From Vibrio sp. HB236076 (lineage in GTDB: Bacteria > Pseudomonadota > Gammaproteobacteria > Enterobacterales > Vibrionaceae): 64,000 nt of DNA. A program made the position numbers and the translations under genes. A model generated the notes under the pieces. That model saw only the letters and a list, made by a program, of their open reading frames with translations, was not told the origin of the DNA and made no database searches. Location of the stretch: NCBI RefSeq assembly GCF_040957575.1, contig NZ_CP162602.1, forward strand, positions 682,001-746,000. Reading direction: 5' to 3'. Positions 10,724-37,506 of this stretch are shown in pieces; the first letter of the stretch is position 1; each line of letters begins with the position of its first letter.

Positions 10724-10852
10724 TTAGCAGCAATCGCCATCTTTACAGCAATCCCCACACACACAACCGTCAGCACACTGACAGTTTTCTGTGTTACAGC
10801 AGCATTGGGCTGATTCTTGCTCTTCACAACATTTACACGCTTCACTCATCAT
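10724..10852 (-). CDS. Metallothionein-like small cysteine-rich protein
   Basis: A 42-residue protein with 14 cysteines: positions 6, 8, 9, 17-19, 24, 26, 30, 32, 35, 36, 41 and 42, in CKCC, QCCCN, CQC, CVCGDCC and DGDCC clusters, with few hydrophobic residues. CxC and CC spacing of this kind is characteristic of thiolate-cluster metal binding. It does not match my memory of SmtA or PmtA, which also hold histidines and an aromatic core. The start ATG overlaps the stop of the MerR gene (TAATG), with GGAG of the MerR end as ribosome-binding site, and a second ATG follows immediately. Coupling to a thiolate-type MerR sensor argues for induced sequestration of Cd, Zn, Pb or Cu. Function inferred. 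Confidence 0.85.
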   Translation of the reverse strand: MMSEACKCCEEQESAQCCCNTENCQCADGCVCGDCCKDGDCC

Positions 10853-11307
10853 TATTCTCCAGCTAGGTTAGGGGTGCTGTCGTCATTACAGCACTGCCAA
10901 TGGTTTTCAAAACAATCCAGTAAATGGCAACCAATTTCAGCACTTTTACTCGAGCCACAAGCGTTAGAAAACATCTCGAGGGCTTTTATCGTTGTCTCTA
11001 ATTCGGAAATTTGTGTTTTTATTTCCTCAATTTTGGCTAACGATTTGTGCTTAACCACGGATCGCGATTGACTGCAACAATGGTCGAAAACGAGAAAATC
11101 TTTAATTTCGTCTAAAGAAAACCCCACCGCCTGCAGTTTTTTTACCAAGCGGACCACCCGAATGTCTTCATCGCGATAGTGACGAAAACCACCGATTTTA
11201 GGTGGCTGCTCAATAATGCCTTTGCGCTCGTAAAAGCGAATCGTTTCTACGCCGACGTTGGCGGCTTTTGCCAATACGCCAATGGTTATGGGGTTGTTCT
11301 CGTTCAT
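10852..11307 (-). CDS. MerR family metal-responsive regulator (ZntR/CadR/PbrR type)
   Basis: About 151 residues: winged-helix DNA-binding N-terminus (ITIGVLAKAANVGVETIRFYE), long dimerisation helix, then a metal-binding loop. Counted from the GTG at 11316, cysteines are at 80, 81, 120, 130, 135, 142 and 143; C80, C120 and the ten-residue step to C130 match the ZntR/CadR class better than CueR or MerR proper, and the C-terminal HWQCC adds further ligands. ATG 11307 is chosen because the predicted transcript begins near 11312; GTG 11316 and ATG 11313 are alternatives. Autoregulated with the downstream metallothionein-like gene. Confidence 0.85.
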   Translation of the reverse strand: MNENNPITIGVLAKAANVGVETIRFYERKGIIEQPPKIGGFRHYRDEDIRVVRLVKKLQAVGFSLDEIKDFLVFDHCCSQSRSVVKHKSLAKIEEIKTQISELETTIKALEMFSNACGSSKSAEIGCHLLDCFENHWQCCNDDSTPNLAGE

Positions 11308-11318
11308 CGACATCACCT

Positions 11319-11350
11319 ACTCTACACTCTGTACCTAGGTACAGAGTCAA
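11319..11350 (-). promoter_or_regulatory. MerR-type promoter and 22-bp operator
   Basis: A perfect 22-bp palindrome (11326-11347, half-site ACTCTGTACCT) sits between -35 TTGACT (11350-11345) and -10 TAGAGT (11324-11319) on the minus strand. The spacer is exactly 20 bp, the over-long spacing MerR activators correct by twisting DNA. Half-site ACTCTG matches known ZntR-type operators. The only genes downstream are the regulator and the metallothionein-like protein. Confidence 0.88.
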
Positions 11351-11472: not shown

Positions 11473-12288
11473 TTATGGGCGTTCACCAGCCTTTAACTTG
11501 GTTTCAATATCGCTTATTACTTGTGGAAGATCAGCAATCGTGTCAATTAAATAGTGGGGCGCGCTTTTGAGCAGTTTCTGACGTGCTTGGTCACGTGCGG
11601 CATTGAGGGTTTCTTGATCTGCGGTTTGGTATTGTTCAAAAGTTAAGCCGGCTTCGTTACCCGATAGCAGCAGGCCAACAGTCCACATGCCCGCATTGTG
11701 GCCTTCGTCGATACCCGGTGCGGAATCGTCGACTTTCACGCATGCTTTAACGTCCGTTACCGCCAACTCGATCACGTTTTTCAGAGCCATAAACGGGGCG
11801 GGGCGTCCGCCTTGTGGAAGATCATCCGTTGCAACGACACAATCCGGGTGGTAACCGTGATGTGAAGCGGCGTCAATTAGTATGTCCATCACCTCTCGAG
11901 GGTAACCAGAGCAAGAGCCAATTTTAATCCCTTGGTCTTTTAGGCCGTTAACAACATCAATGGCATTGAGAATTGGCGCGGCGTGATCGGCGACTTTCGC
12001 TTTTTGCAGTGGCATAAAGGCGCTATAAATGGCGTCAATGTCTTGATGAGTCATGGCGCGACCAAATTGGGCTTTCCAACGCTTTTCCACTGAAGGAAGA
12101 CGGCCAACAGCCTGGATGTGATCCCATTTGCCCAGTCCCATTGGCTCGCGTGCTTCTGCGAGATTAATATCAAAATCAAACCCCTGCTTAAAGGCTTCGA
12201 CAAAAATACTGGTTGGGGCAAAAGAGCCGAAATCGACGATAGTGCCTGCCCAATCAAAAATGACGGCTTGTATTGGTGAGTGACTCAT
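11473..12288 (-). CDS. phnX: Phosphonoacetaldehyde hydrolase (phosphonatase)
   Basis: Cleaves the C-P bond of phosphonoacetaldehyde to acetaldehyde and phosphate. 271 residues from ATG 12288, which is preceded by AAAGGAACCCTA; the upstream 22 codons of the open frame look non-coding. HAD-superfamily signature with nucleophile Asp12 ([11 protein letters not shown]) and the cap-domain Schiff-base lysine at Lys54 (MGLGKWDH), both at positions known for PhnX. Third gene of the minus-strand AEP catabolic operon phnW-pbfA-phnX and its terminal step. Confidence 0.96.
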
Positions 12289-12413
12289 TAGGGTTCCTTT
12301 TTTACTTTTAAAGTGATGCCGACCTCTGTGAGGAGGGCAGTGAGTATTGGTCACCGGCTGTTGTCTTCGTATGGATAAACCAAGTTAACTCAACAGCGAG
12401 TGACTCTGGCCGG

Positions 12414-13784
12414 TTAACCCTCTTGACATACGTTGGCGATCGCTTGCTCTAATAGGGTTAAGGCTTCTGTTAATTGTTCACGAGAAATGATCAGCGGCGG
12501 ACTCAGTTGAATGACATTGCCTTGCGATAGTTTGAAACTGACGCCATTGTTTAGGCAGTGATACAACACCGATTCGGCTTCGTCGTAGGCGCGTTCTTTG
12601 GTGCCCTGATTGGTTACCAACTCAACCCCCCACAGCATACCGATACCGCGTACATCGCCAATCAGCGGGTATTTGGCTTTCATCTCCAGCAGTCTTTGGC
12701 GCATAAATTGGCCATCGGCTTTCGCTTTATCGAGTAAATTTTCTTGCTCAATGGCTTCAATGGTCGCCAGTGCAGCCGCGCAACCGATAGGGCTTTTTTC
12801 ATGGGTATAATGGCCCATCGAGATGTGTGCGGCGGTGTTGTACTTGTCTTTGGTGACCATGGCGGCCATCGGTACTAAGCCGCCACCTAACCCCTTGCCA
12901 ATACAGAGTATGTCTGGTTCGATATCGTAGGCTTGGTAGGTAAACCATTCACCAGTTCTGCCCATCCCGTTGGGAATGTCGTCAATGATCAGCATGACAT
13001 TGTGCTTGTCACAGATGTCGCGAATGCGTTTCCAGTAGGCTTGACTGGGCACTTGCACATCGGTGTTGCGAACGGCTTCAGCAATGAATGCACCCACGCC
13101 GCCTTCTTTTTCGATGACGTACTCTAGGTAATCGGCGTAGTGCACATCACTATCGTGACAAGAGGGAAAAGCGCCGCGATAGGACACAGGAGGAGGGATG
13201 CGTTCAACGCCTGCCATTAACGGCCCCATACCCTGCCGAAAACAAGCTTCACCACCCACCGAAATCGCGTCTAATGACGCGCCGTGAAACGAGTCCCACA
13301 ACGACACGACTTTGTAATTGCCGGTGATGTGACGTGCCAATTTCAAAGCCATGCCAACGGCGGACGTACCGCCTGGGGCGAAGAGTACGCGATTTAAATC
13401 ACCGCCACAGATTTGTGCGATTTTTTCGGCGCATTCAATAGCGGTCGCATTGGTAAAACGGCGCGGAGAAAAGGGCAATTGGGTCATTTGCTCCTGCACG
13501 CGCTTGATGACATGAGGATGGCCGTAACCGAGCTGATGGACGTTATTACCATGAAAGTCCATGTACTTTTTGCCTGTCAGATCTTGAATATAGATTCCTT
13601 TTGCTGTTTCCAAGACGTCTAAGCAAGGCGTCGACATCGCTTGGTGCACGAAAGCGTCAGCGTCTCGTTTTAACCAGGCTTTTGTGCGCTCGTTGTGGAT
13701 GGTTTCATGCCAGGTTTGACGAGCTGGGGTGGTATTGATGTCACCTTCACTGCGCCAATGAGTCGGTTTTAAATTCTGATTCAT
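12414..13784 (-). CDS. pbfA: PLP-dependent (R)-1-hydroxy-2-aminoethylphosphonate ammonia-lyase (PbfA-type)
   Basis: A 456-residue class III aminotransferase-fold protein. PLP lysine is Lys297 (CIGKGLGGG); the pyridine-binding aspartate is in IIDDIPNGMGRTG (about 268). Such proteins inside phnW/phnX loci are known as PbfA, which removes ammonia from (R)-1-hydroxy-AEP to give phosphonoacetaldehyde and so lets PhnX take the hydroxylated analogue too. It lies 36 bp after phnW and 125 bp before phnX. A transaminase role is the alternative; context favours the lyase. Confidence 0.85.
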   Translation of the reverse strand: MNQNLKPTHWRSEGDINTTPARQTWHETIHNERTKAWLKRDADAFVHQAMSTPCLDVLETAKGIYIQDLTGKKYMDFHGNNVHQLGYGHPHVIKRVQEQMTQLPFSPRRFTNATAIECAEKIAQICGGDLNRVLFAPGGTSAVGMALKLARHITGNYKVVSLWDSFHGASLDAISVGGEACFRQGMGPLMAGVERIPPPVSYRGAFPSCHDSDVHYADYLEYVIEKEGGVGAFIAEAVRNTDVQVPSQAYWKRIRDICDKHNVMLIIDDIPNGMGRTGEWFTYQAYDIEPDILCIGKGLGGGLVPMAAMVTKDKYNTAAHISMGHYTHEKSPIGCAAALATIEAIEQENLLDKAKADGQFMRQRLLEMKAKYPLIGDVRGIGMLWGVELVTNQGTKERAYDEAESVLYHCLNNGVSFKLSQGNVIQLSPPLIISREQLTEALTLLEQAIANVCQEG

Positions 13785-13820
13785 AGTGCTTCTGGTACTC
13801 TATTTATGTACATCAATGAG

Positions 13821-14942
13821 TTATTGTTGTTCGTTGTCGTTTTGACCGGTCCAGTACATGGCGTTGTCAATCGCACCGAGCAGGCGTTCGATATCGTCGG
13901 GGTAAACGTCGCCAATATTGCCAATTCGAAAGCAATCTGCGTTTGATACCTTACCGGGATAAATGACAAAGCCTTGCTCTTTCAATCGGGTGTAAAACGT
14001 TTTGAATTGATAATCTGGGTGATCGGGCGAGTAGAACGAAGTAATAATCGGTGAGTGAAGCTCTGTATTCAAAAGAGGCTCAAAACCAAGAGAGCGCATC
14101 CCATTGACCAAGGTGGTTTGGTTGGCTTGGTAACGTTGATGACGAGCGGTTATTCCTCCTTCTTGCTCTAGCTCAATTAAGGCTTGATAGAAAGCGCGAA
14201 CCGTATGTGTGGGTGATGTAAAACGCCATTTTCCGTGGTTGGTTTCCATGCAATGCCATTGGTCATAAAGGTCAAGGCTCAAAGAGCGTGCTTGTCCTTT
14301 GCATTTTTCAAGTTCCGTTTGTTTGGCTATCACAAAGCCAAATCCTGGTACCCCTTGAATGCATTTGTTGGCGGAGCTGATCATAAAGTCGACCTTGAGC
14401 TTGGCAATATCCATCGGGATCCCGCCAAAGCTCGACATGGCATCGAGGATCACAACTTTGCCGTGGGCTTTGGCAACCGCGGTTAACGCTTCAATCGGGT
14501 TGAGCATACCGGTTGTTGTCTCACAGTGAACGATGGCAACGTGAGTGATCTGAGGATCTGATGTTAAAGCGGCTTCGACTTGGTCGAGTTGGGGCGGTGA
14601 GGTTTCTCCAGGTGAAATAATCTGGCACGCAATATTGAGATACTGGGCAATTTGAGCAATACGCGCGCCGTATGCGCCATTGTCGATCACCAACAACTTT
14701 CCTTCTTTGCCTATCGCACTGCCAATGGTTGCTTCTACTGACGAGGTGCCACTGCCTTGCATTAATACACTGGTGTAGCCGGTTTGGTCTGTCGCCAACG
14801 CGACGAGTTTGTTGCGAATCACTTCAACAATGTCTTTGTTATAGTCATCATCCCAAGTACACCAGTCTTTGAGCATCGCTTGTCGAACGGTTTCAGATGT
14901 CGATAAAGGCCCTGGGGTCAGGAGTAGGTATTCATTTTTCAT
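13821..14942 (-). CDS. phnW: 2-aminoethylphosphonate:pyruvate transaminase
   Basis: Converts AEP and pyruvate to phosphonoacetaldehyde and alanine. Start placed at ATG 14942 ([16 protein letters not shown]), matching where PhnW proteins begin and with GGAAATCGCC upstream; ATG 14954 is four codons earlier. 373 residues; class V aminotransferase fold, PLP lysine Lys193 ([14 protein letters not shown]), Asp168 in LDAMSSFGG. First gene of the minus-strand operon, divergent from phnS across a 264-bp region holding two palindromic candidate operators. Confidence 0.95.
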
Positions 14943-14966
14943 GGCGATTTCCATTTACACTTCTAA

Positions 14967-34680: not shown

Positions 34681-36975
34681 TTACTTCTTCAGCAGCCTCA
34701 ACCCATTGGCTACAACAAGTAAGCTTGCGCCAACATCAGCAAAAACTGCCATCCACATAGTACCCACGCCAGCAAAAGTTAGGACTAGAAACAGGGCTTT
34801 TATAGCAAGAGCAAAGCTAATATTCTGTATCAGTATTTGGTAGGTACGTTTAGACAAGCTGACAAATGTCGGGATTTTTCGTAGATCATCATCCATCAAT
34901 GCGACATCAGATGTTTCAATGGCGGTATCAGTTCCCATAGCACCCATAGAGAATCCAATATTTGCAGCCGCCAGCGCAGGCGCATCATTAATGCCATCTC
35001 CCACCATACCTATAACACCGTTACTTGAGTAAGTTTCAATAGTACGATACTTATCTTTAGGAAGCTGATTGCCATGAGCTTCGTCAATACCGACTTGAGA
35101 CGCAACTGCTGATGCGGTATGAGAGTTGTCTCCAGACAGCATGATCGTTTTAATGCCCAAATCATGGAGCTGTTGAACTGCGACACGACTACTTTCTTTT
35201 ACAGCATCTGCCACTGAAAATAGTCCCAGAACTTGGATACCGTTATGAAGCAATGACACGGTCTTACCTTGTTTTTCTAACTTAGAAATTTGGTTTTTAA
35301 TGTCCGCAGGTACAGTAAAGTGTCTCTCTACAAGGTTCTGATTGCCCAAATAATATTTTTGTTTGGCGATTGTTCCAGATACGCCTTCGCCTGCAATGGC
35401 TTTAAAATCGCCTACATCAATGCTTTTTTGAGTAGATAGCGCTGTGGCAATAGCGGTAGAGACTGGGTGGTCAGATAGATTTGTAAGATTAAACCCTAAT
35501 GAGCAAACAGAATCTTCTGTCCATTCGTTGAAAGTTATAACGTCAATCAACTTTGGTTTCCCGTAGGTAATCGTCCCAGTTTTATCTAAAGCTAGTGCTT
35601 CTAGTTTTCTCCCCTGCTCAAGATACACACCTCCTTTAATCAAGATGCCTTTACGTGCTGCCGCTGTCAGGCCGCTAACAATAGTGACAGGCGTAGAGAT
35701 AACAAGTGCACAAGGACAAGCAATCACTAACATAACAAGCGCTTTGTAAATCCAATCTAACCATTCGCCATACCCCAAAATGGGTGGTAGCACAGCAACT
35801 GCGAATGCAATCGCAATGACAGCGGGTGTGTAGATTTGAGAAAAACGATCAACAAAACGTTGAGTCGGAGCTTTAGCACCTTGAGCTTCTTCCACTGCAT
35901 GAATAATGCGTGCCAAAGTCGTATTGTGAGCTGTTGCGGTCACTCTATACTCAAAAGATCCAGCTTGATTGATCGTTCCTGCAAAAATTGAGTCACCTTC
36001 AATCTTATCGACTGGCATACTTTCACCAGTAATAGGGGCTTGGTTAATGGTGGTCTGCCCTTTAATGATATTGCCATCGAGACCAATACGTTCCCCAGGT
36101 TTGACTCTGACAGTGGCACCAAGTTGCACGGTTTGAGCATCAACTTCTTTCCAAGAGTTGTCTGATTGCTGAACTATCACCGTATCCGGTGTTAAACTCA
36201 TTAATGAGCCGATAGCGTTTCTAGCTCGGTCGAGTGATTTTGCTTCAATTAGTTCAGCAATAGTAAACAATACCATTACCATGGCCGCTTCTGGCCATTG
36301 ACCAATAATAAATGCACCAGTAACCGCAATACTCATCAATGCATTCATGTTGAGATTAGTATTGCGTATAGATATCCAGCCTTTTTTATAAGTTGTTAAC
36401 CCACAAGAAAGTACAGCAATTAATGCTAATGTGGCTTGAATCCACTCCGACATCCCCATCCAATGTACTACTTCCGACCCTATCGCTGAGATACCAGCCA
36501 AAGCCAATGGCCACAATGGTTTCTCCTTTTCATGAGGAACTTTGTGAACCTGACTTTTATCAGATACATCTGGCTCAAACCCAAGTGAACGGATAGCAAC
36601 TAATATTATATCCAAGGAATCTGTTGTATGAGTGACTGTTAGTACCCTTTGCATCAAATTGAATTCAAGGCTCTTTACCTGATTCATCCCGCCAAGCTTC
36701 TTTTGAATTAACTGCTCCTCAACGGGACAGTCCATTTGCATAATACGAATTTCAGTACGGACATCATTTCCTACCTTTTTAGAACCAGATAAGCTCTTAA
36801 GTTCGCTCGGAGTAGGCGTAGAACATGAACCACAGCCATTTTGATCATGCTGGAGAACAGTTTCAGTATGTTGATGATCATCCTTGTTCTCTTTTGTTAT
36901 ATGCGAATGGTTATGTGTTGAACTACAGCATGTACTTGTGTTCTCACTAAGATGTTTATCCGTACAATCACTCAT
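34681..36975 (-). CDS. zntA: Zn/Cd/Pb-exporting P1B-type ATPase
   Basis: About 764 residues. Histidine/cysteine-rich N-terminus (CTDKHLSENTSTCC, HNHSH, DDHQHTE, CGSC), one heavy-metal domain with MDCPVEE, then membrane CPC motif (IACPCALVIST), phosphorylation DKTGTIT, SDHPVS as the HP locus, and GDGINDAPAL. These mark a P1B-2 zinc/cadmium/lead exporter. ATG 36975 is favoured over three earlier in-frame ATGs because GAGATGATGAAA precedes it. Divergent from cadR; confers metal efflux. Confidence 0.94.
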   Translation of the reverse strand: MSDCTDKHLSENTSTCCSSTHNHSHITKENKDDHQHTETVLQHDQNGCGSCSTPTPSELKSLSGSKKVGNDVRTEIRIMQMDCPVEEQLIQKKLGGMNQVKSLEFNLMQRVLTVTHTTDSLDIILVAIRSLGFEPDVSDKSQVHKVPHEKEKPLWPLALAGISAIGSEVVHWMGMSEWIQATLALIAVLSCGLTTYKKGWISIRNTNLNMNALMSIAVTGAFIIGQWPEAAMVMVLFTIAELIEAKSLDRARNAIGSLMSLTPDTVIVQQSDNSWKEVDAQTVQLGATVRVKPGERIGLDGNIIKGQTTINQAPITGESMPVDKIEGDSIFAGTINQAGSFEYRVTATAHNTTLARIIHAVEEAQGAKAPTQRFVDRFSQIYTPAVIAIAFAVAVLPPILGYGEWLDWIYKALVMLVIACPCALVISTPVTIVSGLTAAARKGILIKGGVYLEQGRKLEALALDKTGTITYGKPKLIDVITFNEWTEDSVCSLGFNLTNLSDHPVSTAIATALSTQKSIDVGDFKAIAGEGVSGTIAKQKYYLGNQNLVERHFTVPADIKNQISKLEKQGKTVSLLHNGIQVLGLFSVADAVKESSRVAVQQLHDLGIKTIMLSGDNSHTASAVASQVGIDEAHGNQLPKDKYRTIETYSSNGVIGMVGDGINDAPALAAANIGFSMGAMGTDTAIETSDVALMDDDLRKIPTFVSLSKRTYQILIQNISFALAIKALFLVLTFAGVGTMWMAVFADVGASLLVVANGLRLLKK

Positions 36976-37006
36976 TTTCATCATCTCTATCATGTACTAT
37001 TATTAT

Positions 37007-37038
37007 CATTAAAAAGCCTGATCCAACTACAGAGTCAA
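37007..37038 (-). promoter_or_regulatory. MerR-type promoter/operator of zntA
   Basis: Minus strand: -35 TTGACT (37038-37033), 20-bp spacer, weak -10 TTAATG (37012-37007). The spacer holds an imperfect dyad beginning ACTCTGTAG and ending CAGGCT (37015-37035). The arrangement parallels the better palindrome of the metallothionein operon at 11.33 kb. Confidence 0.6.
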
Positions 37039-37056
37039 GAACTAAAAGGGGCATAA

Positions 37057-37506
37057 ATGAAAATTGGAGAACTCGCTAGACAGGCAGACTGTCCAGTAGA
37101 GACCGTTCGATACTATGAAAAGCAAGGGTTACTGCCTAAACCTCAAAGAGAAATGGAGAATAATTACCGTCGTTATGATGCCACCCACTTAGAAAGGCTC
37201 TTGTTTATCCGCCGTTGCAGAGCTTTGGATATGGCCCATGATGAAATACGAGCACTGTTGGAAGCGATGAACTCTGATAGTGTATCCTGCTCTCCCATTG
37301 ATACGGTTATTAGTCAGCATCTTGAGCATGTACAAGATCGAATCAAAGAATTGAAACTTTTAGAGGGCGAGTTGAAAAAACTGAGAAATGAATGTGATTC
37401 TAGGCGTTCGCTGGAAGAGTGTGGCATTGTAGAAAAATTAAATGCTAGCGAAAAGGTTATCTCTACGATTCCTAAAAAAAGCAAACATTTAGGTGGGGTT
37501 CATTAA
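37057..37506 (+). CDS. cadR: Cd(II)/Pb(II)-responsive MerR regulator
   Basis: 149 residues, RBS AAAAGGGGCATAA. MerR helix-turn-helix (MKIGELARQADCPVETVRYYE), then CadR-type cysteines: CSPIDTVISQHLEHV near residue 77, NECDSRRSLEECGIVEKL near 112-119. Divergent from zntA with the operator between them, so it should activate efflux on metal binding. Different subgroup from the MerR at 10.9 kb. Confidence 0.92.
   Translation: MKIGELARQADCPVETVRYYEKQGLLPKPQREMENNYRRYDATHLERLLFIRRCRALDMAHDEIRALLEAMNSDSVSCSPIDTVISQHLEHVQDRIKELKLLEGELKKLRNECDSRRSLEECGIVEKLNASEKVISTIPKKSKHLGGVH

Follow-up and report, generated by a model that had tools for sequence, protein, structure and literature searches.

Does the small, cysteine-dense reading frame behind a MerR-family regulator gene in Vibrio sp. 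HB236076 encode a genuine protein, and if so, does it form a single unit with the regulator beside it? Genes so short escape annotation, and to our knowledge few families of bacterial metallothioneins have been recognised. We analysed the frame within a window of 64,000 nucleotides (positions 682,001 to 746,000 of NZ_CP162602.1) and compared it with relatives in other genomes. It belongs to a metallothionein-like family that is real, conserved and apparently undescribed and that has a MerR of its own, the function being predicted from sequence. The accessible text of the open-licence literature, a body outside which most subscription papers fall, held no description of a MerR-metallothionein operon or of the peptide. 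The features of the locus are as follows.

10724..10852, minus strand: metallothionein-like small gene, a 42-codon frame with 14 cysteines (from sequence, a 20-member alignment and pN/pS)
10852..11307, minus strand: MerR-family regulator of 151 residues with a C-terminal CFENHWQCC tail (from PF13411/PF09278, alignment with 5crl and a tree)
10857..10860, minus strand: GGAG, the likely Shine-Dalgarno sequence of the small gene, within the 3' end of merR (from sequence)
11319..11350, minus strand: putative promoter of merR and the small gene, −35 TTGACT (11345-11350), 20-bp spacer, −10 TAGAGT (11319-11324) (from sequence)
11326..11347, no strand: putative operator, a 22-bp perfect palindrome ACTCTGTACCTAGGTACAGAGT with the core GTAC-N4-GTAC (from sequence)

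A conserved cysteine-rich gene behind merR

The 42-codon frame translates as MMSEACKCCEEQESAQCCCNTENCQCADGCVCGDCCKDGDCC, with 14 cysteines, no histidine and no aromatic residue. Among the 912 stop-to-stop frames in the window that reach 35 codons, its cysteine fraction of 30% is the highest (the runner-up has 19%), which bears out the description of an unusually cysteine-dense 42-residue frame in the initial annotation. The frame lies immediately 3' of merR, and the TAATG then reported, in which the first ATG of the small gene (10852) overlaps the stop codon of merR, is indeed present, but a 42-residue product is the less probable one. A second ATG at 10849 lies 7 nt after the GGAG, and as the alignment of relatives begins at this codon a 41-residue product is likelier. 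All 17 loci evaluated have a GGAG or AGGAGG run upstream of the small gene.

The family comprises peptides of 41-51 residues, about one third of them cysteine, with CC and CxC runs and, in 19 of 20 members, 14-17 cysteines; P0093 has 12, and its C-terminal end has diverged into unrelated letters. Twelve of the 14 cysteines of the window peptide are invariant across the 20 aligned members and the other two are at least 90% conserved, while the Nitrospira and planctomycete form carries three extra cysteines and the L149 peptide has lost one. Aromatic residues are absent from 18 members, as is histidine, with L038 and L153 having one histidine each, at unconserved positions. Pooled over sequence pairs, which are not independent of one another, pN/pS was 0.105/0.492 (0.21) in six gammaproteobacterial peptide sequences and 0.057/0.229 (0.25) in eight Nitrospira sequences, a clear sign that the small gene is under purifying selection. 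A chance open frame behind the MerR gene might be argued from its very short length and from the lack of any Pfam or NCBIfam family, but this explanation is ruled out by the conservation, the purifying selection and the discovery of 11 new loci by the peptide alone, and we give it a negligible probability.

Membership of PF02069, the family of SmtA, BmtA and PmtA, is ruled out, as none of the 20 members matched it at E ≤ 1 in a Pfam scan and the histidine-containing zinc-finger core is also missing. No metallothionein family in Pfam or NCBIfam was matched by any of the 20 members, for which there was likewise no other NCBIfam match and no PDB sequence match; no Rfam family was matched either, and the single Pfam match at E ≤ 1 over all members was a sub-threshold one to AFP_2 (E 0.17) in one of them. 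The scan does detect cysteine-rich proteins, since control sequences of SmtA and a mouse metallothionein matched their own families. Given these controls, the peptide is best described as metallothionein-like without being a PF02069 member, in agreement with the earlier proposal that it lacks conserved histidines and is distinct from the known bacterial family, and judged by its sequence it in all likelihood works like a metallothionein.

A single apparent promoter with a mer-type operator

merR and the small gene have a single apparent promoter, from which they are probably transcribed together. Its −10 is weak and its spacer has the 20 bp initially reported; the operator is a perfect 22-bp palindrome as described, but it does not lie wholly inside the spacer, since it covers the last 3 bases of the −35 together with most of the spacer. 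The generic promoter scan allows spacers of 16-18 bp only and for this reason does not list the promoter. According to the accessible part of a review, MerR promoters typically have spacers of 19-20 bp (PMC9909328). Taken alone, the bare core GTAC-N4-GTAC is not significant, with one occurrence in the window against 0.35 expected. The full promoter-operator pattern has a single occurrence in the source genome, and of 13 carrier genomes 10 contain the exact pattern, one copy each; the other three (G764, G746 and G670) have none, with an altered −35, an altered dyad base or a 19-bp spacer. As there is one exact promoter pattern per genome, the MerR probably serves its own operon only.

The same dyad-in-spacer layout, with small changes to the dyad, precedes merR in all 18 intact loci read, namely the window, 16 more with a measured spacer, and L146, in which the −35 is TGGACT. 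When the best −10 match is chosen among spacings of 17-21 bp, 16 of the 17 measured loci have a 20-bp spacer and L043 has one of 19 bp. The first ATG of merR stands 5-11 nt past the −10 across the loci (the window also has a GTG at 2 nt), so the merR message would be nearly leaderless. An operator of the same type, TTGACTCYGTAC-N4-GTACRG, lies between the annotated merR and merT in pIJB1 and upstream of MerT in L102 and L112; two annotated Hg-MerR records, pWW0 and the Alteromonas mer operon (pAlt83_a), have no such operator next to merR, and MerRs linked to ArsC-like, glyoxalase-type and glutaredoxin/MauE genes have it upstream as well. Found in these non-mer contexts and missing from two mer records, the operator indicates kinship in DNA binding and not the identity of the metal.

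The regulator belongs to a tail-bearing MerR group

The MerR protein matches PF13411 with 58.9 bits (cut-off 21.6) and PF09278 with 43.4 bits (25.4). Its initial assignment as a ZntR/CadR-type regulator does not hold, as it scores below the NCBIfam cut-offs for ZntR (83.5 versus 167.95), CadR-PbrR (57.7 versus 151.45) and CueR (85.0 versus 147.4), and the operator is of mer type. Nearest of the equivalogs tested is that of Hg-MerR, TIGR02051, at 93.2 bits against a cut-off of 150.85, and the best solved relative is the mercury regulator 5crl. Cys78, Cys117 and Cys127 align with cysteines of 5crl that we take to be its metal ligands, Cys78 presumably occupying the position of Cys82 in Hg-MerR. 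Cys78 is present in 54 of 60 MerRs of the clade, Cys117 and Cys127 in all 60, and the same 60 proteins without exception carry Cys132, Cys139 and Cys140 in the tail. According to the accessible part of one study, a cysteine at the first triad position marks the MerR sensors of divalent metals and a serine those of Cu(I) (PMC11591864). The AlphaFold model of the regulator (mean pLDDT 79) has the usual helix order, and we left it out of the argument because the cysteine-rich tail is of low confidence. A Pfam scan found no TipAS domain in the MerR. In a midpoint-rooted tree of 50 hand-picked rows (seven metallothionein loci, 25 of 87 other loci and 18 of 90 proteins) the tail-bearing and metallothionein-linked MerRs form one group with support of 100/99, with members from Pseudomonadota, Nitrospirota and Planctomycetota.

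Distribution and linkage of the pair

The peptide was found in one of 296 Vibrionaceae genomes by a single-sequence search and in one of 369 class-level genomes by a profile search, in both cases the source genome itself. The pair is therefore a rare accessory trait, missing from the other 295 and 368 genomes, respectively, and its suggested co-occurrence across Vibrionaceae was not seen. MerR matches were present in 289 of the 296 Vibrionaceae genomes, the best other one reaching 78 bits (34% identity) against 338 for the regulator itself. Outside the family there are 59 MerR proteins at 48-95% identity, from metagenomes, Psychromonas, Agaribacter and Catenovulum. The peptide lies directly downstream in the top seven of the best 80 MerR genome loci, which come from Psychromonas, a Cellvibrionaceae MAG, Blastopirellula, three Nitrospira and a Planctomycetaceae MAG. 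Of 100 MerR loci (these 80 and 20 viral ones) 94 had a readable frame, and the CFxxxWxCC tail and the peptide were both present in seven of these and both absent from the remaining 87. The tail is also carried by all 60 rows of the clade alignment and by two of 30 remoter proteins (P0062-P0091), most of these being proteins without flanking DNA.

Searches with the peptide profile lead to the same regulator. They matched 5 of 177 genomes in the order of Psychromonas, 9 of 146 in that of Nitrospira and 2 of 196 in one planctomycete order; 11 of the matches are new loci, and ten of these (L145-L153 and L155) have an intact tail-bearing MerR directly upstream. The eleventh, L154 (G930:C39:72043-72153), is a relic in which a broken MerR end runs in frame into a degraded peptide; by eye, a CobW-type GTPase frame lies near this decayed copy (L154/L160). 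The small frame thus passes the conservation test first set for it, being kept at every tail-bearing MerR locus with readable DNA (seven and ten). In P0018, a metagenomic protein found on five contigs and one of the 59 related MerRs, the MerR continues into the cysteine-rich peptide as one chain. A word search with the single 42-residue sequence found no protein, and an eight-row peptide profile found P0092 and P0093 only among 31 candidates; both searches are weak for such a peptide because they require shared 5-residue words. None of 350 peptide-pattern matches in viral contigs was confirmed, and plasmids and phages gave no match in BLAST with the low-complexity filter on.

Proposed mechanism and identity of the metal

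We consider it likely that the two genes form a self-activating metal-detoxification operon, in which a dedicated MerR acts as sensor and an all-cysteine metallothionein as sponge. Without metal, a MerR dimer would occupy the dyad within the overlong spacer, keeping the promoter almost silent. A thiophilic d10 ion, with Hg(II) or Cd(II) slightly favoured and Zn(II) possible, would bind at the Cys78/Cys117/Cys127 site, and the metal-bound MerR would then untwist the DNA and allow RNA polymerase to transcribe merR and the small gene together. The MerR, whose start lies very near the 5' end of the message, would probably be made sparingly, and the peptide, with its good ribosome site, probably in quantity. 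Its 14 thiolates would enclose the metal in an all-cysteine cluster, of perhaps four to five divalent ions by our guess, and as free metal drops the MerR would return to its off state.

The genes around the operon in other genomes bear on the metal in two ways. MerC (PF03203) stands after the peptide, in the same orientation, in two of three planctomycete loci (L039 and L156, not L043), and this context points to mercury; Pfam identifies a ZIP transporter near the Nitrospira operons L157 and L042 and CobW-type GTPases near L157, L042 and L040, which points to zinc. MerA was above its curated cut-off in none of 13 carrier genomes, with weak matches in all 13, and all 14 control genomes gave matches, one of them above the cut-off. 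With low certainty we place the metal among thiophilic d10 ions, with a slight preference for Hg(II) or Cd(II) over Zn(II). Elsewhere in the window (34684-37503, 23-26 kb from the operon) a 770-residue metal P-type ATPase (E1-E2_ATPase and HMA), rich in Cys and His at its start, is encoded divergently from a MerR; the half site that separates these two genes is CTGTAG, not CTGTAC, so they are probably a separate regulon. Directly beside the operon (11473-14954) lie a HAD hydrolase and two aminotransferases, by eye a 2-aminoethylphosphonate degradation set with no apparent link to it.

The same contexts allow the peptide to be read as chiefly a buffer or store of zinc as an essential metal, induced by zinc excess, and not as a sponge for a toxic one. 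The ZIP and CobW neighbours and the lack of a MerA above cut-off among the 13 carriers would suit this reading, but the regulator is nearest to the mercury type and has a mer-type operator, and the source genome already possesses, at 23-26 kb from the operon, the metal P-type ATPase and the divergent MerR that belongs to it; we regard this reading as possible, though unlikely. It is improbable that the peptide acts as a regulatory partner to MerR, a reset factor that takes metal from the sensor or hands metal to it instead of binding it in bulk. The strict linkage to one MerR clade with three further invariant cysteines (132, 139 and 140) would fit such a partner, as would the natural single-chain form P0018, yet linkage is equally expected of a sensor and its target, and the strong ribosome site suggests abundance. 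We hold slightly less probable again a thiol/redox or arsenic(III)-binding factor, to which the relatives of the regulator lend some colour: several MerRs with the same operator type are among those that precede ArsC-like (L048), glyoxalase-type (L049) and glutaredoxin/MauE (L054) genes, and three-cysteine sites also suit As(III). Against this, cluster-forming metallothioneins typically have CCC and CxC runs, and no redox partner stands beside the loci examined.

Relation to known systems

The peptide resembles SmtA, BmtA and PmtA, as far as the accessible sources describe them, in being small, cysteine-rich and probably expressed under a metal sensor. It differs in having no conserved histidine, in its CCC and CC runs and in its failure to match PF02069, and the regulator is here a MerR, of the activator class, where the SmtA type has a repressor of the SmtB/ArsR class. 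In the accessible portions of the respective papers, smtB adjoins smtA and AzuR is remote from nmtA, both sensors being SmtB/ArsR repressors (PMC8790569), and the three bacterial metallothioneins studied have a GATA-type zinc-finger fold (PMC10612145). A MerR-family sensor is paired with a small metallothionein-like protein also in Pseudomonas aeruginosa, where, in the text accessible to us, CadR switches on Zrd, a small and formerly unannotated protein that the authors liken to metallothioneins (PMC12301328). As described there, however, Zrd has two mononuclear zinc-ribbon Cys4 sites, its gene lies elsewhere, between opdD and PA1026, and cadR is not autoregulated (PMC12301328). The regulator itself shares with the Hg(II) MerR of mer operons its operator type (that of pIJB1, L102 and L112), the overlong spacer, the cysteine triad and the relative 5crl; it differs in scoring below the TIGR02051 cut-off, in its extra CFxxxWxCC tail, in a Cys117-Cys127 loop one residue longer than that of 5crl, and in carriers without a MerA above cut-off.

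The nearest architecture in the accessible literature is that of TipAL/TipAS, in which a MerR-class activator and a ligand-sequestering part come from one autoregulated gene (PMC7762955). Here there are usually two frames, with one chain in P0018, and TipAL/TipAS differs, as there described, in having an antibiotic as its ligand and a TipAS domain that is missing from this MerR. A more far-reaching account, which we think doubtful as a whole, would see the peptides as a new class of bacterial metallothionein built on cysteine alone, which co-evolved with a MerR branch of its own into a sensor-and-sponge module carried on one transcript and spread over at least three phyla, with the CFxxxWxCC tail exchanging metal directly with the sponge, the sponge resetting the switch, and the two fused in some lineages into single-chain forms that are the metal counterpart of TipAL/TipAS. 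With the likelier detoxification operon, Nitrospirota, Planctomycetota and marine Gammaproteobacteria would gain an all-cysteine, histidine-free protein that is not of the SmtA type, and biosensing or remediation could draw on a natural, minimal module of metal sensor and sponge. The sensor linked to the peptide offers both a way of finding the family, through the regulator, and an immediate means of testing its function.

Other MerR loci

Among the more distant loci, a MerR gene stands directly before an ArsC-like low-molecular-weight-phosphatase frame in Bdellovibrio/Bacteriovorax-type genomes (L044, L047, L048, L050, L052, L060, L062, L072, L078 and L080; LMWPc by Pfam in L048). The mer-type operator is present in seven of the ten (L047, L048, L052, L060, L072, L078 and L080), and these regulators are possibly MerR-type arsenic sensors. 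A MerR lies directly before a glyoxalase-type frame in L045, L046, L049, L056 and L068 (by Pfam in L049), that of L068 ending in a CC-rich tail, and in L054 and L073 a MerR with the same operator type is divergent from a glutaredoxin-MauE gene (by Pfam in L054 and by eye in L073).
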